The notes under the pieces: model-generated
The model's input: the letters and a program-made list of their open reading frames with translations, nothing else
The model's database searches: none
What the model was told of the DNA's origin: nothing
Assembly: GCF_002234675.1 (NCBI RefSeq)
Contig: NC_019864.2
Coordinates: 12,045,582 to 12,109,581, forward strand
Origin: Oryzias latipes
Lineage: Eukaryota; Chordata; Actinopteri; Beloniformes; Adrianichthyidae
DNA length: 64,000 nucleotides
Reading direction: 5' to 3'
Part shown: positions 1 through 61,750 of the stretch, one piece after another
Numbering within the stretch: position 1 is the stretch's first letter
How the letters are laid out: each line of letters opens with the position of its first letter
Program-made: the position numbers and the translations under genes

Positions 1-54
1 TTACATCATCTGCAAAACTTTCAGTGCTAAAGTCATTGATATTAAACAAAATTA

Positions 55-198
55 AAGTCTCCTTAGAGACCAACAAAAATTGCCATAGCCGACTATATTT
101 CAAGTCGTCAAGGCGGGGTATTGGGTAAAGTTTTCAATTAGCAATAATCGCGCCTCGGATAAACCTCATAGGCTACGATACTGCCACTGCGCAAAGAT
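55..198 (-). ncRNA. RNU4: U4 spliceosomal snRNA, array copy 1
   Basis: The reverse strand reads as a full-length 144-nt U4 snRNA. U4 base-pairs with U6 and chaperones it in the U4/U6.U5 tri-snRNP before spliceosome activation in the nucleus. Visible parts in order are the 5' U6-pairing segment (AUCUUUGCGCAGUGGC), the 5' stem-loop with the kink-turn bound by the 15.5K/SNU13 protein, the second U6-pairing segment (UUGCUAAUUGA), the central domain ending in ACCCCGCC, the 3' stem-loop, the Sm site AUUUUUG and a terminal hairpin (GUCUC UAA GGAGAC). A proximal sequence element lies at -44 to -61. A 3'-box-like motif, GTTTAATATCAATGACT, starts 8 nt past the 3' end (31-47). This copy has GGCUAUGG instead of GGCAAUGG just before the Sm site. 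The ends are set by alignment from memory to vertebrate U4 and are good to about 2 nt. Confidence 0.95.
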
Positions 199-241
199 GT
201 CCACTCACAGTTGCTCACAGTAGACTCACTCTCACGACTAC

Positions 242-259
242 ACCTGTCTGTTATGGTGT
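242..259 (-). promoter_or_regulatory. Proximal sequence element (PSE) of U4 copy 1
   Basis: The minus strand reads ACACCATAACAGACAGGT. Its ACCATAAC core resembles the vertebrate snRNA PSE core (ACCGTAAC in human U6) and lies at -53 to -60. No TATA box lies at -25 to -30, which fits RNA polymerase II and SNAPc use. Confidence 0.7.
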
Positions 260-915
260 CGGTGAGGGAGTTAGTTCAACAAAGATTAGTGAGTCTACAA
301 CAGTCGCTTTCTAATTTTGCATCAATGCGTTTCAACAAGATCTTCAAACAGGTAACTAAACTACAAAAAATAGCATTCTCTATTAATTATAATAAACAAA
401 AAAGAATAATCGTTGAACATAATCCCATGGAAAAAGTCAATCTACTATTATATCTTGAACGTGACAACAGACAGAAGAATACTTTTAGGGAAATCAACTA
501 ATTTTCACTGTCAACAGCTCTCAGGAAAAGCTAAACAACTACAACACTTACTGATTATTTGGAAAAAACAAGTACTTCCACGGGCAAAATTGAAAGCAGA
601 AGTGACAACATGTCATGTGCGACTTTCAAAGAGCACCACAAAGACAGAAGCTTTGAACATTCCATCTCAATAGGTAGGAACAACCAGGAAAAGTAAACAC
701 ATCAAGAATAAAACCTTATCAATATTCCCAGACTATATTCTTTATGGCCATTACATCATATTTAGTAAAACTTAGTACAAATACTTCTAATAAAATACAA
801 TATCATTGGCTACGCAGAGATCTCACCTTACTAGAGCCTAGAACTTATTGCAATATTAGTGTTAAATCATCTGCAAAACTTTCAGTGCTAAAGGCATTGA
901 TATTAAACAAAATTA

Positions 916-1058
916 CAGTCTCCTAGAGACCAACAAAAATTGCCATTGCCGACTATATTTCAAGTGGTCAAGGCGGGGTATTGGGTAAAGTTTTCAATTA
1001 GCAATAATCGCGCCTCGGATAAACCTCATAGGCTACGATACTGCCACTGCGCAAAGAT
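916..1058 (-). ncRNA. RNU4: U4 spliceosomal snRNA, array copy 2
   Basis: This is a second near-identical U4 gene, 861 bp from copy 1. It is 143 nt because one base is missing from the loop of the 3' terminal hairpin (GGUCUCUAGGAGAC). It has the GGCAAUGG form next to the Sm site AUUUUUG. A single change (G at 966 on the plus strand) turns the CGACU arm of the 3' stem-loop into CCACU, leaving one C-C mismatch against AGUCG, with no compensating change. Both U6-pairing segments, the kink-turn and the Sm site are intact. It is probably expressible, but could be a weaker variant or a copy on its way to decay. The PSE and the 3'-box-like motif match copy 1. Confidence 0.94.
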
Positions 1059-1101
1059 GTCCACTCACAGTTGCTCACAGTAGACTCACTCTCACAACTA
1101 C

Positions 1102-1119
1102 ACCTGTCTGTTATGGTGT
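1102..1119 (-). promoter_or_regulatory. PSE of U4 copy 2
   Basis: It is identical to the copy 1 element (ACACCATAACAGACAGGT on the minus strand) and sits at the same -44 to -61 offset. Confidence 0.7.
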
Positions 1120-1772
1120 CGGTGAGGGAGTTAGTTCAACAAAGATTAGTGAGTCTACAACAGTCGCTTTCTAATTTTGCATCAATGCGTTTCAACAAGA
1201 TCTTCAAACAGGTAACTAAACTACAAAAAATAGCATTCTCTATTAATTATAATAAACAAAAAAGAATAATCGTTGAACATAATCCCATGGAAAAAGTCAA
1301 TCTACTATTATATCTTGAACGTGACAACAGACAGAAGAATACTTTTAGGGAAATCAACTAATTTTCACTATCAACAGCTGTCAGGAAAAGCTAAACAACT
1401 ACAACATTTACTGATTATTATGAAAAAACAAGTACTTCCACGGGCAAAATTGAAAGCAAAAGTGACATGTCATGTGCGACTTTCAAAGAGCACCACAAAG
1501 ACAGAAGCTTTGAACATTCCATCTCAATAGGTAGGAACAACCAGGAAAAGTAAACATATCAAGAATAAAACCTTATCAATATTCCCAGACTATATTCTTT
1601 ATGGCCATTACATCATATTTAGTAAAACTTAGTACAAATACTTCTAATAAAATACAATATCATTGGCTACGCAGAGATCTCACCTTCCTAGAGCCTAGAA
1701 CTTATTGCAATATTAGTGTTACATCATCTGCAAAACTTTCAGTGCTAAAGTCATTGATATTAAACAAAATTA

Positions 1773-1916
1773 CAGTCTCCTTAGAGACCAACAAAAATTG
1801 CCATAGCCGAGTATATTTCAAGTCGTCAAGGCGGGGTATTGGGTAAAGTTTTCAATTAGCAATAATCGCGCCTCGGATAAACCTCATAGGCTACGATACT
1901 GCCACTGCGCAAAGAT
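1773..1916 (-). ncRNA. RNU4: U4 spliceosomal snRNA, array copy 3
   Basis: This is a full-length 144-nt U4 gene. The 5' U6-pairing segments, 5' stem-loop, Sm site and terminal hairpin are intact. It has the GGCUAUGG variant before the Sm site. A C-to-G change at plus-strand 1811 converts AGUCG in the 3' stem-loop to ACUCG, giving one mismatch against CGACU. This is the same base pair hit in copy 2, but on the opposite arm. The upstream PSE and downstream 3'-box-like sequence are the array type. Confidence 0.94.
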
Positions 1917-1959
1917 GTCCACTCACAGTTGCTCACAGTAGACTCACTCTCACAACTAC

Positions 1960-1977
1960 ACCTGTCTGTTATGGTGT
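1960..1977 (-). promoter_or_regulatory. PSE of U4 copy 3
   Basis: It has the same 18-nt sequence as in copies 1 and 2, at -44 to -61 from the predicted U4 5' end. Confidence 0.7.
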
Positions 1978-2633
1978 CGGTGAGGGAGTTAGTTCAACAA
2001 AGATTAGTGAGTCTACAACAGTCGCTTTCTAATTTTGCATCAATGCATTTCAACAAGATCTTCAAACGGCAAACTAAACTACAAAAAATAGTATTCTCTA
2101 TTAATTATAATAAACAAAAAAGAATAATCGTTGAACATAATCCCATGGAAAAAGTCAATCTACTATTATATCTTGAACGTGACAACAGACAGAAGAATAC
2201 TTTTAGGGAAATCAACTAATTTTCACTGTCAACAGCTGTCAGAAAAAGCTAAACAACTACAACATTTACTGATTATTTTGAAAAAACAAGTACTTTCACG
2301 GGCAAAATTGAAAGCAGAAGTGACAACATGTCATGTGCGACTTTCAAAGAGCCCCACAAAGACAGAAACTTTGAACATTCCATCTCAATAGGTAGGAACA
2401 ACCAGGAAAAGTAAACATATCAAGAATAAAACCTTATCAATATTCCCAGACTATATTCTTTATGGCCATTACATCATATTTAGTAAAACTTAGTACAAAT
2501 ACTTCTAATAAAATACAATATCATTGGCTACGAAGAGATCTCACCTTACTAGAGCCTAGAACTTATTGCAATATTAGTGTTACATCATCTGCAAAACTTT
2601 CAGTGCCAAAGTCATTGATATTAAACAAAATTA

Positions 2634-2777
2634 CAGTCTCCATAGAGACCAACAAAAATTGCCATAGCCGACTATATTTCAAGTCGTCAAGGCGGGGTAT
2701 TGGGTAAAGTTTTCAATTAGCAATAATCGCGCCTCGGATAAACCTCATAGGCTACGATACTGCCACTGCGCAAAGAT
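2634..2777 (-). ncRNA. RNU4: U4 spliceosomal snRNA, array copy 4
   Basis: This is a full-length 144-nt U4 gene with all pairing segments, the 5' stem-loop, an intact 3' stem-loop (CGACU/AGUCG), the Sm site AUUUUUG and a terminal hairpin with loop UAU. It has the GGCUAUGG form next to the Sm site. Its PSE and 3'-box-like motif are the array type. With copies 1 and 5 it is among the array copies with no unpaired change in the helices. Confidence 0.95.
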
Positions 2778-2820
2778 GTCCACTCACAGTTGCTCACAGT
2801 AGACTCACTCTCACGACTAC

Positions 2821-2838
2821 ACCTGTCTGTTATGGTGT
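2821..2838 (-). promoter_or_regulatory. PSE of U4 copy 4
   Basis: The sequence and offset (-44 to -61) are the same as in the other array copies. Confidence 0.7.
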
Positions 2839-3494
2839 CGGTGAGGGAGTTAGTTCAACAAAGATTAGTGAGTCTACAACAGTCGCTTTCTAATTTTGCA
2901 TCAATGCGTTTCAACAAGATCTTCAAACAGGTAACTAAACTACAAAAAATAGCATTCTCTATTAATTATAATAAACAAAAAAGAATAATCGTTGAACATA
3001 ATCCCATGGAAAAAGTCAATCTACTATTATATCTTGAACGTGACAACAGACAGAAGAATACTTTTAGGGAAATCAACTAATTTTCACTGTCAACAGCTGT
3101 CAGGAAAAGCTAAACAACTACAACACTTACTGATTATTATGAAAAAACAAGTACTTCCACGGGCAAAATTGAAAGCAGAAGTGACAACATGTCATGTGCG
3201 ACTTTCAAAGAGCCCCACAAAGACAGAAGCTTTGAACATTCCATCTCAATAGGTAGGAACAACCAGGAAAAGTAAACATATCAAGAATAAAACCTTATCA
3301 ATATTCCCAGACTATATTCTTTATGGCCATTACATCATATTTAGTAAAACTTAGTACAAATACTTCTAATAAAATACAATATCATTGGCTACGCAGAGAT
3401 CTCACCTTACTGGAGCCTAAAACTTATTGCAATATTAGTGTTAAATCATCTGCAAAACATTCAGTGCTAAAGTCATTGATATTAAACAAAATTA

Positions 3495-3638
3495 CAGTCT
3501 CCATAGAGACCAACAAAAATTGCCATTGCCGACTATATTTCAAGTCGTCAAGGCGGGGTATTGGGTAAAGTTTTCAATTAGCAATAATCGCGCCTCGGAT
3601 AAACCTCATAGGCTACGATACTGCCACTGCGCAAAGAT
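3495..3638 (-). ncRNA. RNU4: U4 spliceosomal snRNA, array copy 5
   Basis: This is the last gene of the near-identical array block: 144 nt, all helices intact, GGCAAUGG before the Sm site, terminal hairpin loop UAU. The promoter-proximal flank is intact through the PSE. Farther upstream the unit has lost about 54 bp (near 3846), and an L2 LINE starts at about 3958, 320 bp upstream of the gene. If the array's distal enhancer lies beyond -320 it is now separated from this copy by about 860 bp of LINE. Confidence 0.95.
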
Positions 3639-3681
3639 GTCCACTCACAGTTGCTCACAGTAGACTCACTCTCACGACTAC

Positions 3682-3699
3682 ACCTGTCTGTTATGGTGT
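3682..3699 (-). promoter_or_regulatory. PSE of U4 copy 5
   Basis: The sequence and offset (-44 to -61) are the same as in the other array copies. Confidence 0.7.
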
Positions 3700-3957
3700 C
3701 GGTGAGGGAGTTAGTTCAACAAAGATTAGTGAGTCTACAACAGTCGCTTTCAAATTTTGCATCAATGCGTTTCAACAAGATCTTCAAACAGGTAACTAAA
3801 CTACAAAAAATAGCATTCTCTATTAATTATAATAAACAAAAAAGAACAGACAACAGACAGAAGGAAACTTTTAGGGAAATCAACTAATTTTCACTATCAA
3901 CAGCTGTCAGGAAAAGCTAAACAACTACAACATTTACTGATTATTTTGAAAAAACAA

Positions 3958-4743
3958 AAACACTCTTAAAATGCATTTTAGACATTGAGTCATGGATGGC
4001 AGAGAACTTTCTACAGCTAAACCAGGACAAAACAGAGGTTTTAGTGATCGGTTCTGAAGACAAGAGAGAGATAGTTTTATCTAAACTAAAGAATTACAAA
4101 ACTTCTCAGTGTGTGAGAAACCTGGGTGTCATTTTTGACTCTGAGATGAATTTTATCCCACAAATTAAAAATATCACAAAAACAGGATTTTATCATCTAA
4201 AAAATATATCCAGAGTCCGCCCGTTTCTCTCTCTTGCCAGTACAGAGGTGCTAATGCATGCTTTTATTACCAGCAGATTAGATTATTGTAATGCCCTGCT
4301 CTCTGGTCTTCCCAGAACAAGAATAGCAAATCTTCAACTGCTGCAAAATTCAGCAGCACGCGTTCTGACCAGGACCAGGGGGCGGGAACACATTACACCA
4401 GTTTTAAGATCGCTGCATTGGCTCCCTGTGCAATTCAGAATTGATTTTAAAGTTCTTTTATTGGTTTACAAATGTTTTTATGGTCTCGGGCCTTCATATT
4501 TATCTGACATGATTTTAAAGTATGAGCCCTCGCGGACCCTGAGGTCCTCTGATACAGGCCTTTTGGTTGTTCCAAAAGTAAGAACAAAGACATACGGCGA
4601 GGCCTCATTCAGTTTTTACGGACCTCGCCTGTGGAACAGCCTCCCAGAGAGCCTAAGGGCCGCAGAGACTGTTCATGTTTTTAAAGGAAGGCTTAAGAAC
4701 TACCTTTTTAATTTAGCTTTTAGTTGAATTTTAGGACTTTTAA

Positions 4744-4813
<70 letters not shown>

Positions 4814-4817
4814 TTTA
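3958..4817 (+). mobile_element. 5'-truncated L2-type LINE inserted in the U4 array
   Basis: An open frame runs from the left junction through the Met at 3996 to a stop at 4725-4727 (243 codons from that Met). It encodes the C-terminal part of a non-LTR retrotransposon ORF2: WM-ENFLQLNQDKTEVLVIG, then SRLDYCNALLSGLP, LQNSAARVLT, ITPVLRSLHWLPVQFRIDFK and LWNSLPESLR. These are typical of the region after the reverse-transcriptase catalytic core in fish L2 elements. The catalytic part and any endonuclease are absent, as expected from 5' truncation. The 3' end is a long TTA/TTTA-rich simple tail (4740-4815). The intact frame suggests a fairly young insertion, but it cannot move by itself. The family assignment is from motif memory, and a related CR1/Rex1 clade is possible. 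Confidence 0.85.
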
Positions 4818-4945
4818 GGGAGTTAGTTCAACAAAGATTAGTGAGTCTACAACAGTTAAACTTAGTACAAATAAAATCCAATATCATTGGCTTAGCAGAG
4901 ATTTCACCTTACAAGGCACTAGAATTTATTGCAATATTAATGTTA
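4818..4945 (-). repeat. Rearranged remnant of the U4 array spacer, without a U4 gene
   Basis: Bases 4818-4857 match the spacer just upstream of the PSE (GGGAGTTAGTTCAACAAAG...). The sequence then jumps about 430 bp within the unit to a diverged stretch equivalent to 771-870 (CTTAGTACAAATA... to ...GCAATATTAATGTTAC). The U4 gene that should follow is missing. Spacer bases from far apart in the unit are therefore joined next to the LINE tail. Deletion or unequal exchange around the insertion explains this better than simple insertion. Confidence 0.8.
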
Positions 4946-5549
4946 CATTTTTTTAAAAAGTAGTTTATTACACACAATGGCCTTGTGTGACTCTGCAACA
5001 TTCTAAGAAAAAACAGTTCTTTAACAAGCTTTAAACTAAATATTTATTTTGGCTTGCAATTCCCAACAAGCAATCCTTAATCAATAAAGCAAAGCCTTAT
5101 CGATTTAAAGACTTTCAGCTACTATTTACTGTTGAAGTCAGTTCAAGGAGCCCCTGAAGTTTGGTGCGCCATCATATGTTCTACCAAAAGAAATCACCAT
5201 GGAGCAAAAACACCACAAAAACTATTGTTTCTCATTAAAAATGCAAGAATTCATCAATTGCTTGTCTCTCAATTTATATAAATGAACACAGAAATAAAAC
5301 AGAACATATTGGATTATATAGTTTAACAGATAAATAATTTCATGTTAGAAAATTTAGATTATTGAAAATACAGAATCATTTTAGCCTTAACTCAAACAAT
5401 GTTTGAGCAAGTTTCAAACTCTTTTCATAAACAACATAACTTAGCAAACAAATAGAACAATATAAATTACACACAAATGAGATGAGCAACGATCTAATCT
5501 AATCTAATGATCTAATAAAGATCAAACTATTTCACAGGCTGATGTTCGT
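4946..5549. other. AT-rich spacer, no feature recognised
   Basis: This stretch has no similarity to the U4 unit, no convincing open frame and no RNA gene that I can see. It separates the near-identical array from the diverged U4 units. Confidence 0.5.
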
Positions 5550-5920
5550 TTAAAGTCAAATCGTTCGCAGTGGTCTTTTAATTATGATTAGGACGTTTTT
5601 AGATAAAATCTGAAAACATGCTTTGTATTGTAATGCTTAGTTTTGCAAAGCAAGACTTTTTATCCAGCAGTACAGTTTTTATCCAGGTGCCAGCTCAGAT
5701 GAGGAAAACACAGACGTGCATGGGTCTATTTGTCTTCAAGTGGCTGCATCTGAATGGAAAAGGGCATTGAGCTTGTAGTCTGCTGATTTTAGTTTCTGTC
5801 ACAATTTCTGTTTTTAAACTGGATTTTTTTAAATAAATAAATACTCAGAAATGCATTTTGTTCTTTATATATGTCATCTATAATTGGTAAAAGGCTACAA
5901 GAATATGCTTAAACAATATG
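5550..5920 (+). mobile_element. TTAA-type non-autonomous DNA transposon, copy A (decayed)
   Basis: It starts with TTAAAGTC and shares GTGGTCTTTTAATTATGATTA and CCAGCTCAGATGAGGAAAAC with the complete copy at 11622-12216, in the same order and orientation. The right end is eroded and its position is approximate. The flanking U4 units make it a likely later insertion into a degenerate part of the array. Confidence 0.65.
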
Positions 5921-6156
5921 AAATCTATTCATCCATCAAAAGTTTCTTTAAGGCCTTTTTTGAGTTTTTTTAACCATTCATTTACATTGAGTAATCTCAA
6001 ACACTCCAAAATTCACGAGAGGATGCAACCCCACCATTGGATATTTATCATATTTAATTGATTGATTAATTAAAATAACATAATTTAATATTCATCACCC
6101 ATCTGTATTTATGTAACAAGTACATATTTAACCAGATTAAAATTTAACAAAGTAGT
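5921..6156. other. AT-rich spacer leading to U4 copy 6
   Basis: No gene is seen. On the minus strand, GTTAAATTTTAATCTGG starts 8 nt past the U4 copy 6 end and is a weak candidate 3' box. Confidence 0.45.
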
Positions 6157-6300
6157 CAGTCTCCTTAGAGACTACCAAAAATTGCCATTGCCGACTATAT
6201 TTCAAGTCGCCAAGGCGGGGTATTGGGTAAAGTTTTCAATTAGCAATAATCGCGCCTCGGATAAACCTCATAGGCTACGATACTGCCACTGCGCAAAGTT
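6157..6300 (-). ncRNA. RNU4: U4 spliceosomal snRNA, copy 6 (diverged unit)
   Basis: This is a full-length 144-nt U4 gene in a unit whose spacer is alignable to, but clearly diverged from, the array. The 5' end reads AACUUUGCGCAGUGGC, so position 2 is A rather than U. The second U6-pairing segment, kink-turn, 3' stem-loop and Sm site AUUUUUG are intact. The arm before the 3' stem-loop reads GGCGACUU. The terminal hairpin reads AGUCUC UAA GGAGACU, and this fully paired form is closer to vertebrate U4 than that of the array copies. The PSE is at the same position but differs in sequence. Confidence 0.94.
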
Positions 6301-7025
6301 GACCAAACTAAGCGGCACACAGTCACCTCATTCTGGTCCCTACACGTCTCGGTTATGGTTTCAGTGACAGAGTTACTTCAACAAAGATCAGTGAGTCCAC
6401 GACAGCCGCTTTCAAATTTTAAAATCAATGCATTTCAATAAGATCTTCAAAATAGTTCAAAACAGGTAGGTTCAAAACTACACAATAATCTCATACTCGT
6501 TTGATGACGACAAACAAAAGAGAATAATCTTTAAACATATCAATAACGTAGAAAAAGTCAGTTTACAATTGTGTCTTGAACGCAACAATCGACATGCAGA
6601 AAATTTAGGAAACACAACTAATTTTCACTACCAAAATAGTCTGGAAGAGGTAAACAACTGCAAAATTTACTGATAATTTTGAATAAACGAGTACTTCCAC
6701 GAACAAAGATAAAACGGAAGTGACGACATTTCCTGTGCAACTTTTTAAAAGCTCCACAGACAAAAGTATTAAACCGTTCCTCTCGATAAATAAACATGCA
6801 AAAATGTAAACTTTTAAAAAAAATAAAACATTATCAATAGTACTTAACCGTTTAATTTGTGACCATTTCAACATTCTCAAAAGGTGCTACTACCGCCGCG
6901 GCTACGATTATTAACGTTACTTTGGCCATACACGGAACCAGATTGTTCTCACGATGCCGCCAATCAGGTCCCTGTGGATTTTTAAACTTCTTGTATTATA
7001 TATCATTTTTCGTTATACAGAAGAT
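6301..7025 (-). repeat. Diverged U4-unit spacer (unit 6)
   Basis: Blocks of the array spacer are recognisable in the same order: the GTGACAGAGTTACTTCAACAA region, a TCAATGCATTTCAATAAGATC block, a GTCTTGAACGCAACAATCGAC block, and a GGAAGTGACGACATTTCCTG block. It shares more with the spacer at 7170-7823 than with the array. No protein gene is seen. Confidence 0.8.
6344..6361 (-). promoter_or_regulatory. PSE of U4 copy 6
   Basis: The minus strand reads AACCATAACCGAGACGTG around the core. The ACCATAAC-type core is kept at -53 to -60, while the 3' half has diverged from the array type. Confidence 0.65.
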
Positions 7026-7169
7026 AAGTCTCCTTGGAGACCATCAAAAATTGCCATTGCCGACTATATTTCAAGTCGTCAAGGCGGGGTATTGGGTAAA
7101 GTTTTCAATTAGCAATAATCGCGCCTCGGATAGACCTCATAGGCTACGATACTGCCACTGCGCAAAGAT
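7026..7169 (-). ncRNA. RNU4: U4 spliceosomal snRNA, copy 7 (diverged unit)
   Basis: This is a full-length 144-nt U4 gene, 869 bp from copy 6. It has the 5' U6-pairing segment AUCUUUGCGCAGUGGC, the kink-turn stem-loop with one extra difference in the loop (GGUCUAUCCGAGG, versus GGUUUAUCCGAGG elsewhere), an intact 3' stem-loop, the Sm site AUUUUUG and a terminal hairpin GGUCUC CAA GGAGAC. The loop change lies outside the tandem G-A pairs. It appears structurally competent. Confidence 0.94.
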
Positions 7170-7823
7170 AAACAAACACAGCGGCTCACAGTAACCTCAT
7201 TCTGGTCCCTACACGTCTCGGTTATGGTTTCAGTGACAGAGTTACTTCAACAAAGCTCAGTGAATCTCCGACAGACGCTTACAAATTTTACATCAATGCA
7301 TTTCAATAAGATCTTTATAAAAGTTTAAAACAGGTAAATAAACTACACAATAATCTCATACTCGTTTGATGACGACAAACAAACATCAATTAAATGGAAA
7401 AAGTCAGTCTACATTTGTGTCTTGAACGCAACAATCGACAGGCAGAAACATTTAGGGAACAGAACTAATTTTCACTATAAACAATAGTCAGGAATAGGTA
7501 AACCACTGCAAAATTTACTGATTATTTTGAATAAACGAGTACTTCTACGGACCAAGTGAAAAACGGAAGTGACGACATTTCCTGTGCAACGATTGAAAAG
7601 CTCCACATACAAAAGCATTAAACCTCCCCTCTCGGTAAATCAGGAACATGCAAGTAAATTAAACTTTCTTAAAAAAATATCAGTAAACCTTAACCATACA
7701 TTTTGTGGCATAATTTTCACTGTCATAAGTCCATAAAGGGAGCTATTGGCTCTCGCGGTGTTGCTCTTGCAACCATCTAGATTATTTATCAAAGTTGAAT
7801 ATGCGTTATATTTCACAGAAGAT
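7170..7823 (-). repeat. Diverged U4-unit spacer (unit 7)
   Basis: It is homologous to the spacer at 6301-7025 over most of its length and, more weakly, to the array spacer. It is shorter (798 bp from copy 7 to copy 8). No open frame or other gene is recognised. Confidence 0.8.
7213..7230 (-). promoter_or_regulatory. PSE of U4 copy 7
   Basis: It is the same as the copy 6 PSE, with the core at -53 to -60. Confidence 0.65.
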
Positions 7824-7967
7824 CAGTCTCCTTAGAGACCGTCAAAAATTGCCATTGCCGACTATATTTCAAGTCGTCAAGGCGGGGTATTGGGTAAAGT
7901 TTTCAATTAGCAATAATCGCGCCTCGGATAAACCTCATAGGCTACGATACTGCCACTGCGCAAAGAT
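7824..7967 (-). ncRNA. RNU4: U4 spliceosomal snRNA, copy 8 (upstream-most)
   Basis: This is a full-length 144-nt U4 gene and the closest of the eight to the vertebrate consensus at the 3' end (GGCAAUUUUUGACGGUCUCUAAGGAGACUG). The U6-pairing segments, 5' stem-loop, 3' stem-loop and Sm site are intact. Its 5' flank is unlike the tandem units. It carries a well-placed PSE (-44 to -61) and a strong ZNF143/Staf-type site at about -186 to -204, the place expected for a distal sequence element. It is the best candidate in the window for an individually regulated, functional U4 gene. Confidence 0.96.
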
Positions 7968-8010
7968 AACTCCAGCATAGCATAGCCGGGGAAGTCATTT
8001 GGCCACATAC

Positions 8011-8028
8011 ATAGTTCCCTTACGGTTT
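8011..8028 (-). promoter_or_regulatory. PSE of U4 copy 8
   Basis: The minus strand reads AAACCGTAAGGGAACTAT. The ACCGTAA core equals the human U6 PSE core and sits at the same -53 to -60 spacing as in the other seven copies, although the surrounding flank is unrelated. Confidence 0.7.
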
Positions 8029-8152
8029 TAGCTAAGCAATGTCCAAAGGTACATATTTTTCAATGCTAAACAGCGTTTTATTAATAGATTGAATAGAAAT
8101 TGTATTGGTGTTTTGTTTCTTTAAAAATAAGCAATTTAAAACTTTCGCCTTT

Positions 8153-8171
8153 CGCGCAGTGCATGATGGGA
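8153..8171 (-). promoter_or_regulatory. Candidate distal element: ZNF143/Staf binding site
   Basis: The minus strand reads TCCCATCATGCACTGCGCG, very close to the known Staf/ZNF143 consensus (TTCCCAGCATGCATTGCGC type). It lies 186-204 bp upstream of U4 copy 8. Vertebrate snRNA distal elements sit near -200 and often contain this site together with an octamer. I do not see a clean octamer beside it. Confidence 0.65.
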
Positions 8172-11100
8172 TTTCTCCAACACTTTCGTGTCGTTGTTCC
8201 GTTGGCAGCGATGTTTTTTTTACTTAGGAACAGTGTTGTCGAACAAATAAACAAAATCATAATATAAAGAGAGATATTGCCTAATATTTTACATGCATTT
8301 AAAAGGAAAGAAGATATACATTGTAAGACTGGGTTGTCTACGGTGGCTCGTTTGACTTAAATCAAATCGCCAATTCTATTTCATTGTTTTTAAAAGGGAA
8401 AATGTAAAAAATAGCAACAAAAATATTAATAAATCTTAAGAAACTAATTTTCAAATAAAAAAACGTATGTTTTAGAGAAACAGCTATTCGTACCTTAGGT
8501 GTTAAACTAAAAAGATCTTTATCGCAAAGTCACCACTAGGTGTCAGTAAACTCCCGGACAAAAATGAAGTCGAAGGCCTCGGAATGATAATTATAAATTG
8601 GGAACAGCGTAACACGTGTATTAATTGCATAATTTCTCCAAACCATCGTTAAAATTTGTATATTTTCGGTGTGCATTAAATATAAATCAAAACAACCTAT
8701 TTTTTTTATTTTTTTGTTTTATAAACCAGATAAAAAGGGTTTAAACTAACCCCTTAAAGTTAACTTTTAGCTAACTATACTAGCATATCGAAAAACAAAG
8801 GGGTGGGGCAAACGTTTTAAAAAGTGTCGACACTTAGAAATTTAAACTAAAAACACAAAAACTGTACATATAAATAAAAAAATACACTGCAAAGTAAAGT
8901 AAAACTGTCTTACCTGTTTAATATAGCTTAGTCGGGTGGGGGGGGGGGGGGTAATTACTGAAAAATCTTGAGAAACACCCATGCCAAAGAAAAAATATTT
9001 AGCTTGCATTTGGTTTGTAAGCTTGAAACAAATTTTTGAAAGGCTGCTGTTCTTCTTACCTGTTCACCAGAACAGAGGATGTAAAAAAAAAGAAAGTCTG
9101 CAACGGAAATTGGCTGGATGGCACGTGGCAAAATATTCGAGTGTATATGGCCGGTTTGATTTGATTTTCTTTTATTCTTTTTTTTTTTCTCTTTTTCCTT
9201 AAGACAAGGTCAACTCACCCTGTCTCGCTGTTACTGTGCATATCTTTTGCATGCATTTTAATAAAGGCCTAGACTTTAAAAGGGTTGATTTAAGATTTGA
9301 GACTGACATGAAAAAGTCATTTTAAAGCTAAGAGTTTAAATGTAATCCAGGTCCTTTTTCTTTAAAAATAAATTGAGTATTTAAGTCAAATATAAATAAT
9401 TACTTTAATTATATGATAATCAAGCCTTGTCTTCAGAGCAGATTAGCCAAACCTTGTCTCAAATAAATAAAAAATATTTATATATAATAGTTTCATCACT
9501 TGGGAAATACTTCTTAGGTGAGAGGATGCTGAAATCAGAGATGTGTCAAACACATGTTGCAATCAGGTCATGAACCCTTAGTAATTAGGGGGTAGATTTG
9601 TACACCGCAAGTGTAACTCAAACAGTAATTCCAGTGTGAAGAAATCACAAGCATTTTCACTTTTTGTGAGGCTTCAGCGGGATAATGTAGGTGCTTTTGG
9701 GTGCTCAGCACATAATCTGTGGTGTGCCAGGTGTTAAAGCTGCATGGGCTGACACATTAGACAGCGATTTGCTCCTGCCAGAATGTCAGGCCAATGAAAC
9801 TCACAGGCTTGGATCACTGTCAGGGACAGGTAAGTACTCAGATAAGGGGATTACACTGTGTTTGTGCCAAGTAATCTAAAATGAATCCTGCCGCACTGTT
9901 TCATCCTTAGCAGGAAAACACAAATTTCTCTTTTTTTTAAATCCAAGGTTGCACATTTAACGAACAATGTTAAAATGACAACATGCTTCTTTTAACCTAT
10001 AGCTTAAAGCATATTAAGGATTGGGGTTGTGCTTGTTTAATATCTGTGACAGCAATTATCTCATCTAATTCTCTGAGGCACAATTTCTTTTTTTTTACTA
10101 CGTTTTTCAATATTCTTTTCCATCAGCAGCACAGTCTAGTTCTGCTAGGGGTTTGTAATAACCACCTGTGTATTGTCAGTTGTGCTTTCTCATTGTAAGT
10201 TTTAAATTTATAATATAAAAAGACATTGTATTTTTGCAAGAGTATTTTAATGTATCTTTGGGCTTTTGGCTCTTCCTGATGGCAGGCAGAGTGATGGAAA
10301 TAGACTGTAACAGATGGCTCAGCTGCTTCTGCCATGCATCACAGGATGGTGGGTATGATGCCATCCAAAAGAAGCTCAGTGGAGAGCCCGAAGTCTTCAG
10401 CATGCTGGGAGCTGTTTTCCTCCAGAACCAACAAGCACAAGACTTTTAAAGAAAATGAGTGTGTCATTTCAAACATTACCTAATCAACTTTTACGAGCTT
10501 GCAGCAAAGCAAATGTTGTTTTGGGGGGGTTTGAAAAAGAGCCTTGCGTTGTGGATTCGATCACAGAAAAATGCTGCATCTCTTTAATCTCTTTCTTATC
10601 AAATTCTGGAATTAATGTTGGTTCTGCACAGAAGAACAAATGGACGTGTAGCATTGTGTAATCAGTTTTACACCACATCATGGGTTGTTAAAGACATTAG
10701 CTGATGCTGTGTGCTCCTCTGTCTGTCTCAGAGTGGGGCCACCTGGATAATAAAAGATGAGCTGATTAGATTGTGTTATGTGCATAGAGAGGAGATCGAT
10801 GAGATTTATCTTGGGTAAAGTGACAGCTGAGATAGTGTGAGTAAGATGTCTGATAAAAAAAAGACACTTTTTTTTTTGCTCTAACTTTAGGGTCAAAGAC
10901 AAACATTGGAGATTTTAGGTTTGGATTCCATTTCTATGCCCCTAGAACTGCTGCATTCAAGCTGCTTCTTTACACGATTCCTCCAATTCAGATTTCTTTC
11001 TTCCTCCTCCCAGACACACACATGCTCACAGACTGTTCACACCAACCCACTGACTGCTGCCGCCCTGCTATTCCCAGCTTTTGGTTATTCCCAGACTGAC

Positions 11101-11621: not shown

Positions 11622-12216
11622 GTTAAAGTCCCACTCCAATCATCTTTTAATCTATTATTAAAGCGTTCCAAGTTGTCTTTTAATTATAATTATGCAGTTT
11701 TTAAGCGAAATTTAAAAATCTGTGTCGTTTTGAGAAATTTGCATCTGAGTTGTGGCTGTGACTGTCGGCACGGAAGCAAGCCCGCACTCATTTCCCATGA
11801 TCCCTTTGCTCACACTCTCTAGCTCCAACAACCCCCAAGCTAACATTAGTGGTGCAACAAAAAGGGTGAGCAATATTGACGCTGTCCAACCATACAGTTT
11901 GGAGTCAGATACCAGCTCAGATGAGGAAAACAAAGACGTTCATGGATCTAGTTGTTTACAACTGGATGCATCAGAATGGAGCAGAGCAGAGAGCTTGTGG
12001 TCCACTGACTGTAGTTTGTACGTAACAACTGCAATCTTTTTCAAACTGCGTTTTTTCATCAGTTTCTGATTCAAAACAATTTAAATAAATACATACTAAA
12101 AGAAACAAATTCAATCTCATATTTTTTTAAGTAAATGGCCTCCATCATGAGAAAAATTCTACAAGAAGATGTTATAAACACCAAAAACTCAATTTTCATT
12201 GGAGTAGGTCTTTAAC
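11622..12216 (+). mobile_element. TTAA-type non-autonomous DNA transposon, copy B (complete)
   Basis: The 595-bp element has terminal inverted repeats GTTAAAGTCCCACTCCAAT and, at the other end inverted, GTTAAAGACCTACTCCAAT (17 of 19 match). Both ends include TTAA (11623-11626, 12212-12215), which fits a TTAA target duplication as in piggyBac or Kolobok elements. Inside, an open frame (11752-12069) contains GATKRVSNIDAVQPYSLE followed by SDTSSDEENKDVHG. The frame is partly kept in copies C, D and E, so it may be a relic of a coding exon in the autonomous parent. Confidence 0.8.
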
Positions 12217-20964: not shown

Positions 20965-21365
20965 TAAAGTTAATGTGAATCACTCCAATAAATATTGTGT
21001 TTTTGGTGTTTTAACATGTTTTTGTGGCATTTTTCTGATGGATGCATATAAAGAAAATAAAGCTTAAAATTGCAATGCTGAGTATTTCTTTATTAAAATT
21101 GCTGTAAATCAGGAGCAGATATAAAAAAAAAACTTTGAAAAGGCCTGTAGCTGTGACACAGAAGCTAAAAACGGCAGGCCATATGCTCCCTGCTCTGCTC
21201 CATTCTAATGCATCCACTTGTAGATGACTAGATCCATGAACGTCTTTGTTTTCTTCATCTGAACTGGTATCTGACTCCAAACTGTATGGTTGGATAGCTC
21301 CAAAATTGTGCGCCTTTTTGTTGCAGCGGCTGGAAGCGACAAAGGTAGTGGGAGAGGCTTTAAAC
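20965..21365 (-). mobile_element. TTAA-type non-autonomous DNA transposon, copy C (partial)
   Basis: On the minus strand it encodes MESDTSSDEENKDVHGSS and LEWSRAGS, matching copy B almost residue for residue. The CACTCCAAT end is kept at 20981-20989. The opposite end is lost near 21365. Confidence 0.75.
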
Positions 21366-32109: not shown

Positions 32110-32707
32110 CTTTAAAGAGCCACTCTGATAAAAATCGTGTTTTTTGTTTTTTTAAACTTTGCTCTTGTGTCAATTTTCTCAAGATGGACGACATTTGCAA
32201 ACAAAAATAAACTTAAAATTTAGTTTCTGAGACTTTCATTTTTCAAATTGTTGTAAATTTAAGATTAGACCAAAAATACCACTGGAAAAGCTTGTAGCTG
32301 TGATGTAGATGCTACAATCAGTAGTCCCCATGCTCCCATCCACTTGTAGACGACTAAATCTATGTACTTTTCCTTATCGGAGCTTGAATCTGGCAAAAAA
32401 CTGTACAGTTGGGTAGCTCCAATATTGCTTGCTGTTTTTGTTGCACCTGTCATGTTAAGTTGGCGTTGTAAGGGGTTGTAAGCTTGCGGGAGAGTGATGA
32501 TGATGGAAAATGGGGGCGGGCTTACTCTGTGCCAACAGTTCTGCCCACAACTCTGAGCGAGGGGAATTTCTAATTACCAACTGCCTTTTTGCAGAAATTA
32601 TGTACTAAAAAAACAACTCAGTTATTAATTTAGGCTTAATGTAATTAAAAGACCACTGGAAACACTTTTAAAATAGATCAAAATATGAGTGGAGTGGGAG
32701 TTTTAAG
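32110..32707 (-). mobile_element. TTAA-type non-autonomous DNA transposon, copy D (complete, diverged)
   Basis: It is 598 bp between TTTAAAGAGCCACTC and the inverted end CTTAAAACTCCCACTCCACT, with TTAA at 32112-32115 and 32703-32706. The minus strand keeps GATKTASNIGATQLYSF and DSSSDKEK, a diverged version of the copy B frame. Its full length equals copy B within 3 bp. Confidence 0.8.
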
Positions 32708-51959: not shown

Positions 51960-51992
<33 letters not shown>

Positions 51993-56189: not shown

Positions 56190-56565
56190 AACTCCTTTTT
56201 GTTCTTCTTTTTGTATTTGATTTCCTCATCTATGGTAGCACCTGGTTAAAAACTGTACGGCTGGATCACTGCAATATTGCTTGCTGTTTTTGTTACACCG
56301 ATAATGTTCAGTTGGGGGTGTGAAGGGCAATATAAGCTAATGGGAGAGAATGTAAACAGATGGATGATGGGAAGAGGGGTGGGCTTATTCCATGCCTATG
56401 GTCCTGTCCACAACTCAAAGTTTAATTTAAATGAACTACTGCAAATTTGCAGAAACTTTGTCCTAAGACATGACATTATATATTTTGGCTAAAAACAGCA
56501 TAATCATCAATAAAAGACCACTGGGATTGATTTTACAATAAACGAAAAAATTGGTCTTTACAGTC
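56190..56565 (-). mobile_element. TTAA-type non-autonomous DNA transposon, copy E (partial)
   Basis: On the minus strand it contains VTKTASNIAVIQPYSF followed by a stop and a degraded DEE segment, homologous to the frame of copy B. The AAAAGACCACTGG stretch matches copy D. Ends are eroded. Confidence 0.65.
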
Positions 56566-61483: not shown

Positions 61484-61750
61484 TTTAAAGTCCCACCCCG
61501 ATCATCCTTTGAGCTATTTTAAAAGCGTTCCCAGTGGTCTTTTAATTATGATTATGCTGTTATTAGGAAAATACCTGAATTGTTTTCTAGGACATAGTTT
61601 CTGCGGAGCAACATTGGTTCATTAGAAATCAATCCGAGTTTTGGGTTGGAACAGTTGGCATGGAGTAATCCTTCCTTTCCCGTCACCCATAACTGAACTG
61701 TTTACACTCTCCCGCTATCTGACAGCTCCTTTGTCACGTCAAACTGAAAC
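61484..61750 (+). mobile_element. TTAA-type non-autonomous DNA transposon, copy F (left part)
   Basis: It starts TTTAAAGTCCCACCCCGATC with TTAA at 61485-61488, and keeps AAAAGCGTTCCCAGTGGTCT and TTTTAATTATGATTATGC. The right half is missing or too diverged. Confidence 0.7.

Follow-up and report, generated by a model that had tools for sequence, protein, structure and literature searches.

Does a long tandem run of U4 snRNA genes supply its host with U4, or is it mostly a dead repeat? The question is raised by the left end of a 64-kb stretch of DNA, here referred to as the window. Human U4 variants are named as a cause of common neurodevelopmental disease in PMC13083260, and the dose and sequence of U4 therefore matter.

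U4 genes in the window

A cmscan search of the whole 64 kb yielded eight Rfam matches at the gathering threshold, all of which are to U4 (RF00015), are located on the minus strand and span positions 1-138 of the 138-position model. The matches (58-198, 919-1058, 1776-1916, 2637-2777, 3498-3638, 6160-6300, 7029-7169 and 7827-7967) have scores of 120.4-130.4 bits (E-values 7e-27 to 2e-29), as compared to an Rfam cut-off of 46 bits for U4. A first-pass annotation of this DNA had proposed a minus-strand cluster of eight full-length U4 genes; 8/8 were recovered where it had placed them, at 120-130 bits, and none of these eight full-length copies had the truncated or pseudogene-like score that it had named as speaking against the proposal. 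Nothing further was found in a permissive Rfam scan of positions 1-9500 except for one sub-threshold snoRNA (22 bits, cut-off 35).

The five left-most copies, all on the minus strand, belong to units of a type that we refer to as young. Gene 1 (55..198; 127.2 bits, model 1-138) has T rather than G as its terminal base, while gene 2 (916..1058) is 143 nt long, has a 1-base deletion in the terminal loop as well as G93C in the 3' stem-loop, and obtained the lowest score in the window (120.4 bits). Gene 3 (1773..1916; 121.3 bits) carries G106C in the 3' stem-loop, and it is followed by gene 4 (2634..2777; 126.8 bits) and gene 5 (3495..3638; 129 bits), the last young unit, the spacer of which is interrupted by a LINE fragment. 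The remaining three minus-strand copies belong to old units: gene 6 (6157..6300; 128.3 bits), the spacer of which shares 65-67% identity with the spacers of units 1-4, gene 7 (7026..7169; 128.3 bits), the spacer of which shares 81% identity with the unit 6 spacer, and gene 8 (7824..7967), which is located at the right end of the array and has the highest score in the window (130.4 bits). Start-to-start spacings of the first five copies are 861, 857, 861 and 861 bp. The proposal of one cluster with five near-perfect units of about 860 bp holds with regard to spacing (857-861 bp), but the cluster is made up of two types of units rather than of a single uniform type. The window consensus is identical at 134/144 positions to the human U4 sequence.

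The RNA features listed in the first-pass annotation, namely the two U6-pairing segments (as predicted), the kink-turn, the Sm site and the terminal hairpin, were present in 8/8 window copies. The Sm site AAUUUUUG and the 3' terminal hairpin were found in all eight, and positions 27-33 and 42-46 of the kink-turn in the 5' stem-loop were identical in all eight. Among the 20 copies to the left of the window, two have a changed kink-turn (C27T, A44G), and one has T123C. Cofolding of the first 80 nt of U4 with the U6 encoded on contig C13 of the same genome predicted pairing for 28/28 copies; stem I has 8 predicted pairs in every copy, and stem II (U4 positions 1-17) has 15 in 26 copies, 14 in one and 13 in one.

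Promoter and 3' elements were scanned for with assumed PSE, SPH and 3' box consensuses. A PSE-like element is present at the same offset in 8/8 window units (gene 5' end + 43 to + 62), close to the 45-65 bp upstream that is usual for the PSE of vertebrate snRNA genes, as in gene 1 (241..260, minus strand, at -62), and inspection of the motifs identified it in 28/28 U4 genes. The best match at -62 covers 10/12 positions in units 1-5, 9/12 in units 6-7 and 7/12 in unit 8, where it ties with a match at -69 (7/12). A profile built from units 1-7 scored best at the shared offset, out of 275, for gene 8 (8010..8029, minus strand; 8.9 bits, runner-up 8.1 at -237), a test that is not fully independent since the local BLAST alignment of unit 8 to unit 6 extends to 8031. 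A possible, weak DSE (SPH/ZNF143-like) is located at 8161..8179 on the minus strand of gene 8 (-212; 11/15 positions), and units 1-5 share an octamer-like match (7/8) at -124. The consensus scan identified no exact octamer in the window units, no clear DSE in units 6 and 7, and no strong 3' box in the window units, where the best matches are weak and their distances vary.

Within the window, the cluster consists of five young units, the LINE fragment, the remnant of a unit that lacks U4, and then three old units with diverged spacers. The 5'-truncated non-LTR retrotransposon fragment (3956..4816, plus strand), which we presume to be L2-like, adjoins unit 5, ends with a TTA run and contains a 243-aa open frame that has no match in Pfam and overlaps no U4 gene. 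No convincing target-site duplication was seen, a low-complexity 8-mer at most. The remnant (4817..4959, minus strand) was recognized from 40/40 and 77% matches to the unit spacers, and its pieces were recovered again in a spacer search; there was no significant U4 match in 3956-6136. Seven of the 20 ORFs of at least 60 aa in 1-9000 overlap a U4 gene, such that the remark in the first-pass annotation about open frames lying over the genes was fair but minor. Of these 20, the LINE ORF was the one scanned against Pfam. The seven overlapping frames are 60-111 aa long and antisense, and a protein-coding reading of them was set aside as improbable. A wider set of 20 long ORFs, made up of the LINE ORF and 19 from a list of 174, matched no Pfam family, nor did six-frame scans of 8-64 kb at E 0.001 and 0.01, which short exons could escape, and one 263-aa ORF had no match in PDB. 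Paxillin, which like SIRT4 is a neighbor of RNU4 in human, gave no tblastn match in the 64-kb window, a DYNLL1 match at 8093-8221 (E 0.003; 37% over 43 residues) was judged to be due to chance, and the DNA of 1-3955 had, as expected, no match in a phage collection.

Young and old units across the array

We searched the host genome, 734 Mb in 25 contigs, for U4 and identified 28 genes, all on one strand, in one cluster of 25.5 kb (C6:12028034-12053548). Twenty of these are located to the left of the window and eight within it, in line with the suggestion in the first-pass annotation that the array continues past the left edge. No U4 was found outside the cluster in the genome DNA search (28 candidates, 28 scored, 28 matches), all 28 listed genes exceed the 46-bit cut-off of the covariance model, and the spacer sequence was recovered from the U4 array alone. 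The copies represent 21 distinct gene sequences, 18 of which are found among the 25 young copies. The two left-most copies score 119.3 and 116.9 bits, while the lowest scores (113.5 and 114.9 bits) belong to internal young copies; decay of the copies towards the left edge is accordingly poorly supported.

To judge by gene and spacer identity, the array has an old right-hand end, three units long, and a block of 25 units that share a younger type of spacer. The 24 full spacers of young units are 94-100% identical to one reference (97.5-98.7% pairwise in units 1-4). The U4 genes of the three old units are 95-98% identical, while their spacers are 65-81% alike or, for the upstream flank of gene 8, similar to other units at background level only. 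Position 126 of U4 is T in 25/25 young copies and G or A in 3/3 old copies, while at position 112, in the second stem-loop, 22 young copies have T and the other 3 young copies, like the 3 old ones, have A. Identical units recur at lags of 2, 8 and 10 in the young block, with a single difference at lag 3, a pattern to be expected if blocks of several units underwent unequal crossing-over or conversion. The first-pass annotation described neither the two age classes nor the remnant without a gene, and it did not note that the copies differ in quality.

Copy quality and competing explanations

We compared the divergence of genes and spacers. Units 1 and 7 differ at 4/144 gene sites and 203/641 spacer sites (Fisher p 3e-16), and units 6 and 7 at 7/144 and 121/648 sites, respectively (Fisher p 9e-6). 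Gene 8 is 96.5-97.9% identical to the other genes, as compared to a background-like 42-46% in the upstream alignment and 37-48% identity of its first 65 upstream bp to three other units. Greater conservation of genes than of spacers was not seen in the 24 young units (segregating sites 24/144 versus 78/714, odds 1.63, p 0.065; pi 0.026 versus 0.027), nor do the rates differ in units 1-4 alone (5/144 versus 25/717, p 1), and in the 24 young units variability is higher in the 3' stem-loop (11/34 sites) than in the spacer (p 0.001). Variants in young genes are more often singletons than those in spacers (12/24 versus 15/78, p 0.007), and this applies to 5/6 of the variants in intolerant regions (p 0.003), with both p values approximate because the units share ancestry. 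The intolerant regions are those of human RNU4-2, as given in PMC13253345. Only 1/13 variable sites in the eight window copies falls in such regions (p 0.023 with 51 positions; p 0.041 with a refined set of 46), while in all 28 copies there are 7/32 in the 46 positions, with 10.2 expected (p 0.12), a weak avoidance. With human-cell intolerance as the yardstick, the copies in the array are unequal: changes in intolerant regions other than at position 126 were identified in 5/28, none of them in the window. The amplified block has changes that affect the 3' stem-loop, and a few of its copies are changed within or adjacent to the T-loop/stem III region.

We consider it very probable that the locus is a U4 snRNA gene array, probably of a teleost, with 28 head-to-tail minus-strand units that supply U4 dose and with a redundancy that permits single copies to drift. 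By analogy with known vertebrate snRNA genes, RNA polymerase II would transcribe each unit from a PSE centered near -53, and the transcript would be capped, ended near the 3' box and loaded with Sm proteins, after which U4 would pair with U6 to form the U4/U6 for the tri-snRNP. If the units are transcribed and assembled in this manner, the many copies would together add up to the required dose. Redundancy would allow single young copies to drift, and some would therefore be fit and others probably weak or dead.

That young genes are as variable as their own spacers is also what would be expected if the array were mostly dead, with U4 provided by the three old genes, possibly joined by a small number of young ones, while the 25 young units drifted neutrally in a satellite-like manner. 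The intolerant-region changes in 5/28 copies, the U4-less remnant and scores down to 113.5 bits in the young block fit this explanation as well, but the PSE-like motif and the predicted U6 pairing are retained in 28/28 copies, all of which score far above 46 bits, and singletons are commoner among gene variants than among spacer variants, as if damaged copies failed to spread. We regard a mostly dead array as possible but doubtful. Newer mutations alone could also yield the singleton excess. A division of labor like that reported for other snRNA genes and 5S genes of zebrafish, in which young units provide U4 in oocytes and embryos and old units in somatic cells, is suggested by the differences between the two classes in the spacer and at position 126, and by zebrafish, for which PMC11075544 describes oocyte-specific U1 and U6 and two somatic U4 sequences on chromosome 4. 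It seems unlikely, as position 112 is not correlated with age class and no promoter class was distinguished between young and old units. The broader idea that all U4 of the major spliceosome comes from this one array, with the variable amplified block as the oocyte and embryo supply and the three ancestral genes as the somatic one, is rather more speculative.

Some units are identical or differ at only 0-2 sites, and an assembly error could have inflated or collapsed the number of young units, but most units have private differences, variants are interspersed along the array, the LINE fragment and the remnant lie inside the cluster, and the 94 kb inspected contain no N, all of which make such an error very improbable. 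The multiple copies of U4-like sequence also bring to mind the processed pseudogenes of mammals. Here, however, the promoter-like element is kept and the copies are arranged head to tail; the retropseudogene explanation was rejected because the spacers are duplicated together with the genes and dispersed copies were not found, and we give it almost no weight. A genome with its U4 genes in one array, in which fit and damaged-looking copies are adjacent, offers a natural experiment on the number of good copies required and on the speed at which bad ones are purged or spread. It also displays ongoing concerted evolution of snRNA genes, with old units persisting at the edge.

Comparison with known snRNA gene families

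The first-pass annotation had set the array against mammals, which were said to keep few functional U4 genes. This agrees with the at least two functional U4 genes in human (PMC13083260), but the contrast is not absolute, because 11-117 potentially functional genes are given per major snRNA type in the same paper. In PMC4291461, the snRNAs of vertebrates are said to form families with dozens of nearly identical members. Human RNU4-1 and RNU4-2, which are contiguous on chromosome 12 and 97.2% identical to each other (PMC11030480), resemble the genes studied here in being contiguous genes for the same U4 RNA of the major spliceosome, with two functional genes as compared to 28 copies. The human RNU2 array (6 to >80 copies; PMC13083260) is likewise tandem, with a high and variable copy number, but it encodes U2 rather than U4. 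In the array studied here, 21/28 sequences are distinct and an old, unhomogenized edge survives.

The literature searched, in which subscription papers and preprints are poorly covered, yielded no description of a U4 array in fish, which does not imply that none exists. Tandem arrays of U2 and U5, with repeats about 1 kb long that contain a PSE and a 3' box, have been published for teleosts (PMC3464664); these are similar in arrangement, but they link U2 and U5 in one unit, whereas the present array contains U4 alone. The host genome also has a U1 array on C2 (repeat of about 1,070 bp) and a U5 array on C19 (about 880 bp), both tandem and with many copies like the U4 array, and the earlier view that a U4 array is notable as such was overstated. 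Among the matches listed, which give lower bounds, U1 is found on at least three contigs and U5 on at least two, and 23/25 U1 copies on C2 have an equal score, while U4 was found at a single locus, where the copies vary more. Arrays of tandem snRNA genes are ordinary and common in fish; what is less usual about this one is that the search located U4 nowhere else and that several copies look worn.

The one U4 locus found

When the whole window was scanned with Rfam, exactly eight matches reached the gathering threshold, and all eight were full-length U4 genes on the minus strand. Their scores of 120.4-130.4 bits, against a cut-off of 46, exclude chance, and a permissive scan of positions 1-9500 gave nothing credible beyond these eight. 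The first-pass annotation had placed eight full-length minus-strand U4 genes at 1-7967, and the Rfam matches, numbered here from left (unit 1, 58-198) to right (unit 8, 7827-7967), fall within that interval. The two U6-pairing segments, 5' stem-loop, Sm site and terminal hairpin that it had also described were seen in every copy (8/8), and 13 of the 144 columns in the alignment of the eight genes are variable. The two lowest scores in the window belong to genes 2 and 3, both of which carry substitutions in the 3' stem-loop (G93C plus a loop deletion in gene 2; G106C, with an altered predicted fold, in gene 3).

A U4 model search of the host genome (734 Mb, 25 contigs), in which the window occupies C6:12045582-12109581, identified 28 genes after 41 out of 45,194 first-look candidates had been scored. 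Queried with gene 8, a DNA search recovered the identical set (28 candidates, 28 scored). All 28 are located on the minus strand of contig C6 (NC_019864.2), between 12028477 and 12053548. As had been proposed, the array continues past the left edge of the window: a separate Rfam scan of the adjoining 30 kb contained 20 of the 28 genes, with no U4 gene in its left-most 10 kb. Spacer sequence was located only in C6:12028034-12053245 in a search of the genome. Since the gene, DNA, left-flank and spacer searches all converge on this stretch, the U4 genes form one array of approximately 25.5 kb, which is the only U4 locus found; strongly diverged copies could escape such searches. A possible terminal coding exon was read by eye to the left of the array, on the minus strand of locus L010 (approximately 1780-1885), with a splice acceptor, about 30 codons and a stop.

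Organization and turnover of the array

The young block consists of 25 units, five of which are inside the window, with start-to-start distances of 852-862 bp in 23 of 24 cases and 843 bp in the remaining one. Compared with the query spacer, itself one of the set, the 24 full spacers of the young units show 94-100% identity. The old units 6 and 7 have spacers that are 81% alike mutually, as compared to 65-69% against those of units 1-4. Leftward from units 6 and 7 follow unique DNA, a unit remnant without a U4 gene (4817-4959), a LINE fragment that we take to be L2-like (3956-4816), and then the young block. Gene 8 marks the right edge, with an upstream alignment at the background level of 42-46%, though one local alignment to unit 6 extends to 8031.

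Among the 28 genes there are 21 distinct sequences, with shared sequences in groups of four, three, two and two copies. The sharers are mostly non-neighbours, one adjacent pair excepted, and identical or near-identical whole units lie 2, 3, 8 and 10 units apart. Such spacing is what unequal crossing-over or conversion is expected to leave when it duplicates blocks of units, with old units persisting at the array edge.

The window also contains dispersed repeats, 66-85% alike and with copies on both strands (5545-5929, 11660-12194, 21007-21319, 32337-32475, 56213-56546, 61484-61611), and a run of 26 G at 51967-51992.

Uneven conservation of the copies

There is a strong sequence-based case that the old units contain real genes. 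Units 1 and 7 differ at 4/144 gene sites and 203/641 spacer sites (p 3e-16), and units 6 and 7 at 7/144 and 121/648 (p 9e-6); these and all other p values on the array are approximate because the sequences are related by duplication. The same contrast could arise from conversion restricted to the gene, yet even then the gene would be the part that is kept. Scored against a PSE consensus, a PSE-like element was the best match at -62 from the gene 5' end in 8/8 window units, although -69 scored equally well in unit 8. When units 1-7 were combined into a profile, the same offset ranked best of 275 in unit 8, a test that is not fully independent because of the local alignment to unit 6; identity to units 4, 6 and 7 over the 65 bp immediately upstream of gene 8 is, however, only 37-48%. 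For a DSE, the units gave a 7-of-8 octamer match at -124 (units 1-5) and an SPH-like match at 11 of 15 positions at -212 (unit 8), with no clear candidate in units 6 and 7, and for a 3' box they gave weak matches whose distance from the gene varied. Pairing with one of this genome's own U6 RNAs in stems I and II was predicted for all 28 U4 RNAs.

In the young block, the variation counts against every copy being functional. Segregating sites, counted in the 24 units with full spacers (unit 25, with a cut spacer, left out), amount to 24/144 in the gene and 78/714 in the spacer (odds 1.63, approximate p 0.065), and pi is nearly equal (0.026 and 0.027). The 3' stem-loop (84-117) varies more than the spacer (11/34 sites, approximate p 0.001), and in units 1-4 alone 5/144 gene and 25/717 spacer sites are variable (p 1). 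The array's lowest scores, 113.5 and 114.9 bits, come from two internal young copies. Singletons are commoner among gene variants (12/24) than among spacer variants (15/78; approximate p 0.007), which fits selection that keeps damaged copies from spreading, or just a more recent origin of the mutations.

The regions that were reported as depleted in a saturation-editing study of human RNU4-2 (PMC13253345) were applied here as regions and not as scores of particular changes. Of the variable sites in the window's eight copies, 1/13 falls in these regions (51 positions, p 0.023; refined 46 positions, p 0.041; both approximate), and for all 28 copies 7/32, with 10.2 expected (approximate p 0.12). 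Five of the 28 copies, all outside the window, are changed there at a position other than 126. Two young copies, C6:12033615 and 12036194, have A73G and C75T in common. C75T lies in the counterpart of human stem III, so a change in a human-intolerant region has been copied within the array.

Published work describes developmental switching of U4 isoforms in Xenopus, chicken and fly (PMC4291461) and oocyte-specific snRNA clusters in zebrafish (PMC11075544). On a more speculative reading, by analogy, the young block could provide U4 to the oocyte or embryo and the old edge could provide the somatic U4. Gene position 126 cleanly splits the classes (T in the 25 young, G or A in the three old); no such split is seen at position 112 of the second stem-loop.

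Comparison with other snRNA genes

U1 and U5 are also tandem in this genome. For U1, at least 42 matches were scored, at least 25 on C2, 13 on C13 and 4 on C22; the C2 array (C2:9149086-9184586) has copies mostly ~1,070 bp apart, the same score being obtained for 23 of the at least 25 matches, and smaller groups are found on C13 and at C22:24923716-24926952. For U5, at least 47 were scored, at least 44 of them in a large cluster on C19 (C19:13304142-13432799, with tandem runs at ~880 bp) and at least 3 on C7 (C7:6878217-7547681). U6 gave nine matches on three contigs (C11, C13 and C2; loci L028-L031), three above 110 bits (48 candidates scored), so the partner of U4 is not arrayed like U4. The U6 copy on C2 carries a one-base insertion as well as substitutions and resembles a pseudogene or a variant form.

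Vertebrate snRNAs have been described as families with dozens of almost identical members (PMC4291461), the tandem copy number of human U2 ranges from 6 to over 80 (PMC13083260), and fish U2-U5 arrays are already published (PMC3464664). Together with the U1 and U5 genes of this genome, these place the U4 array among known arrangements. What stands out is the uneven quality of the U4 copies and their presence at one locus, whereas U1 and U5 each occupy two or more contigs.
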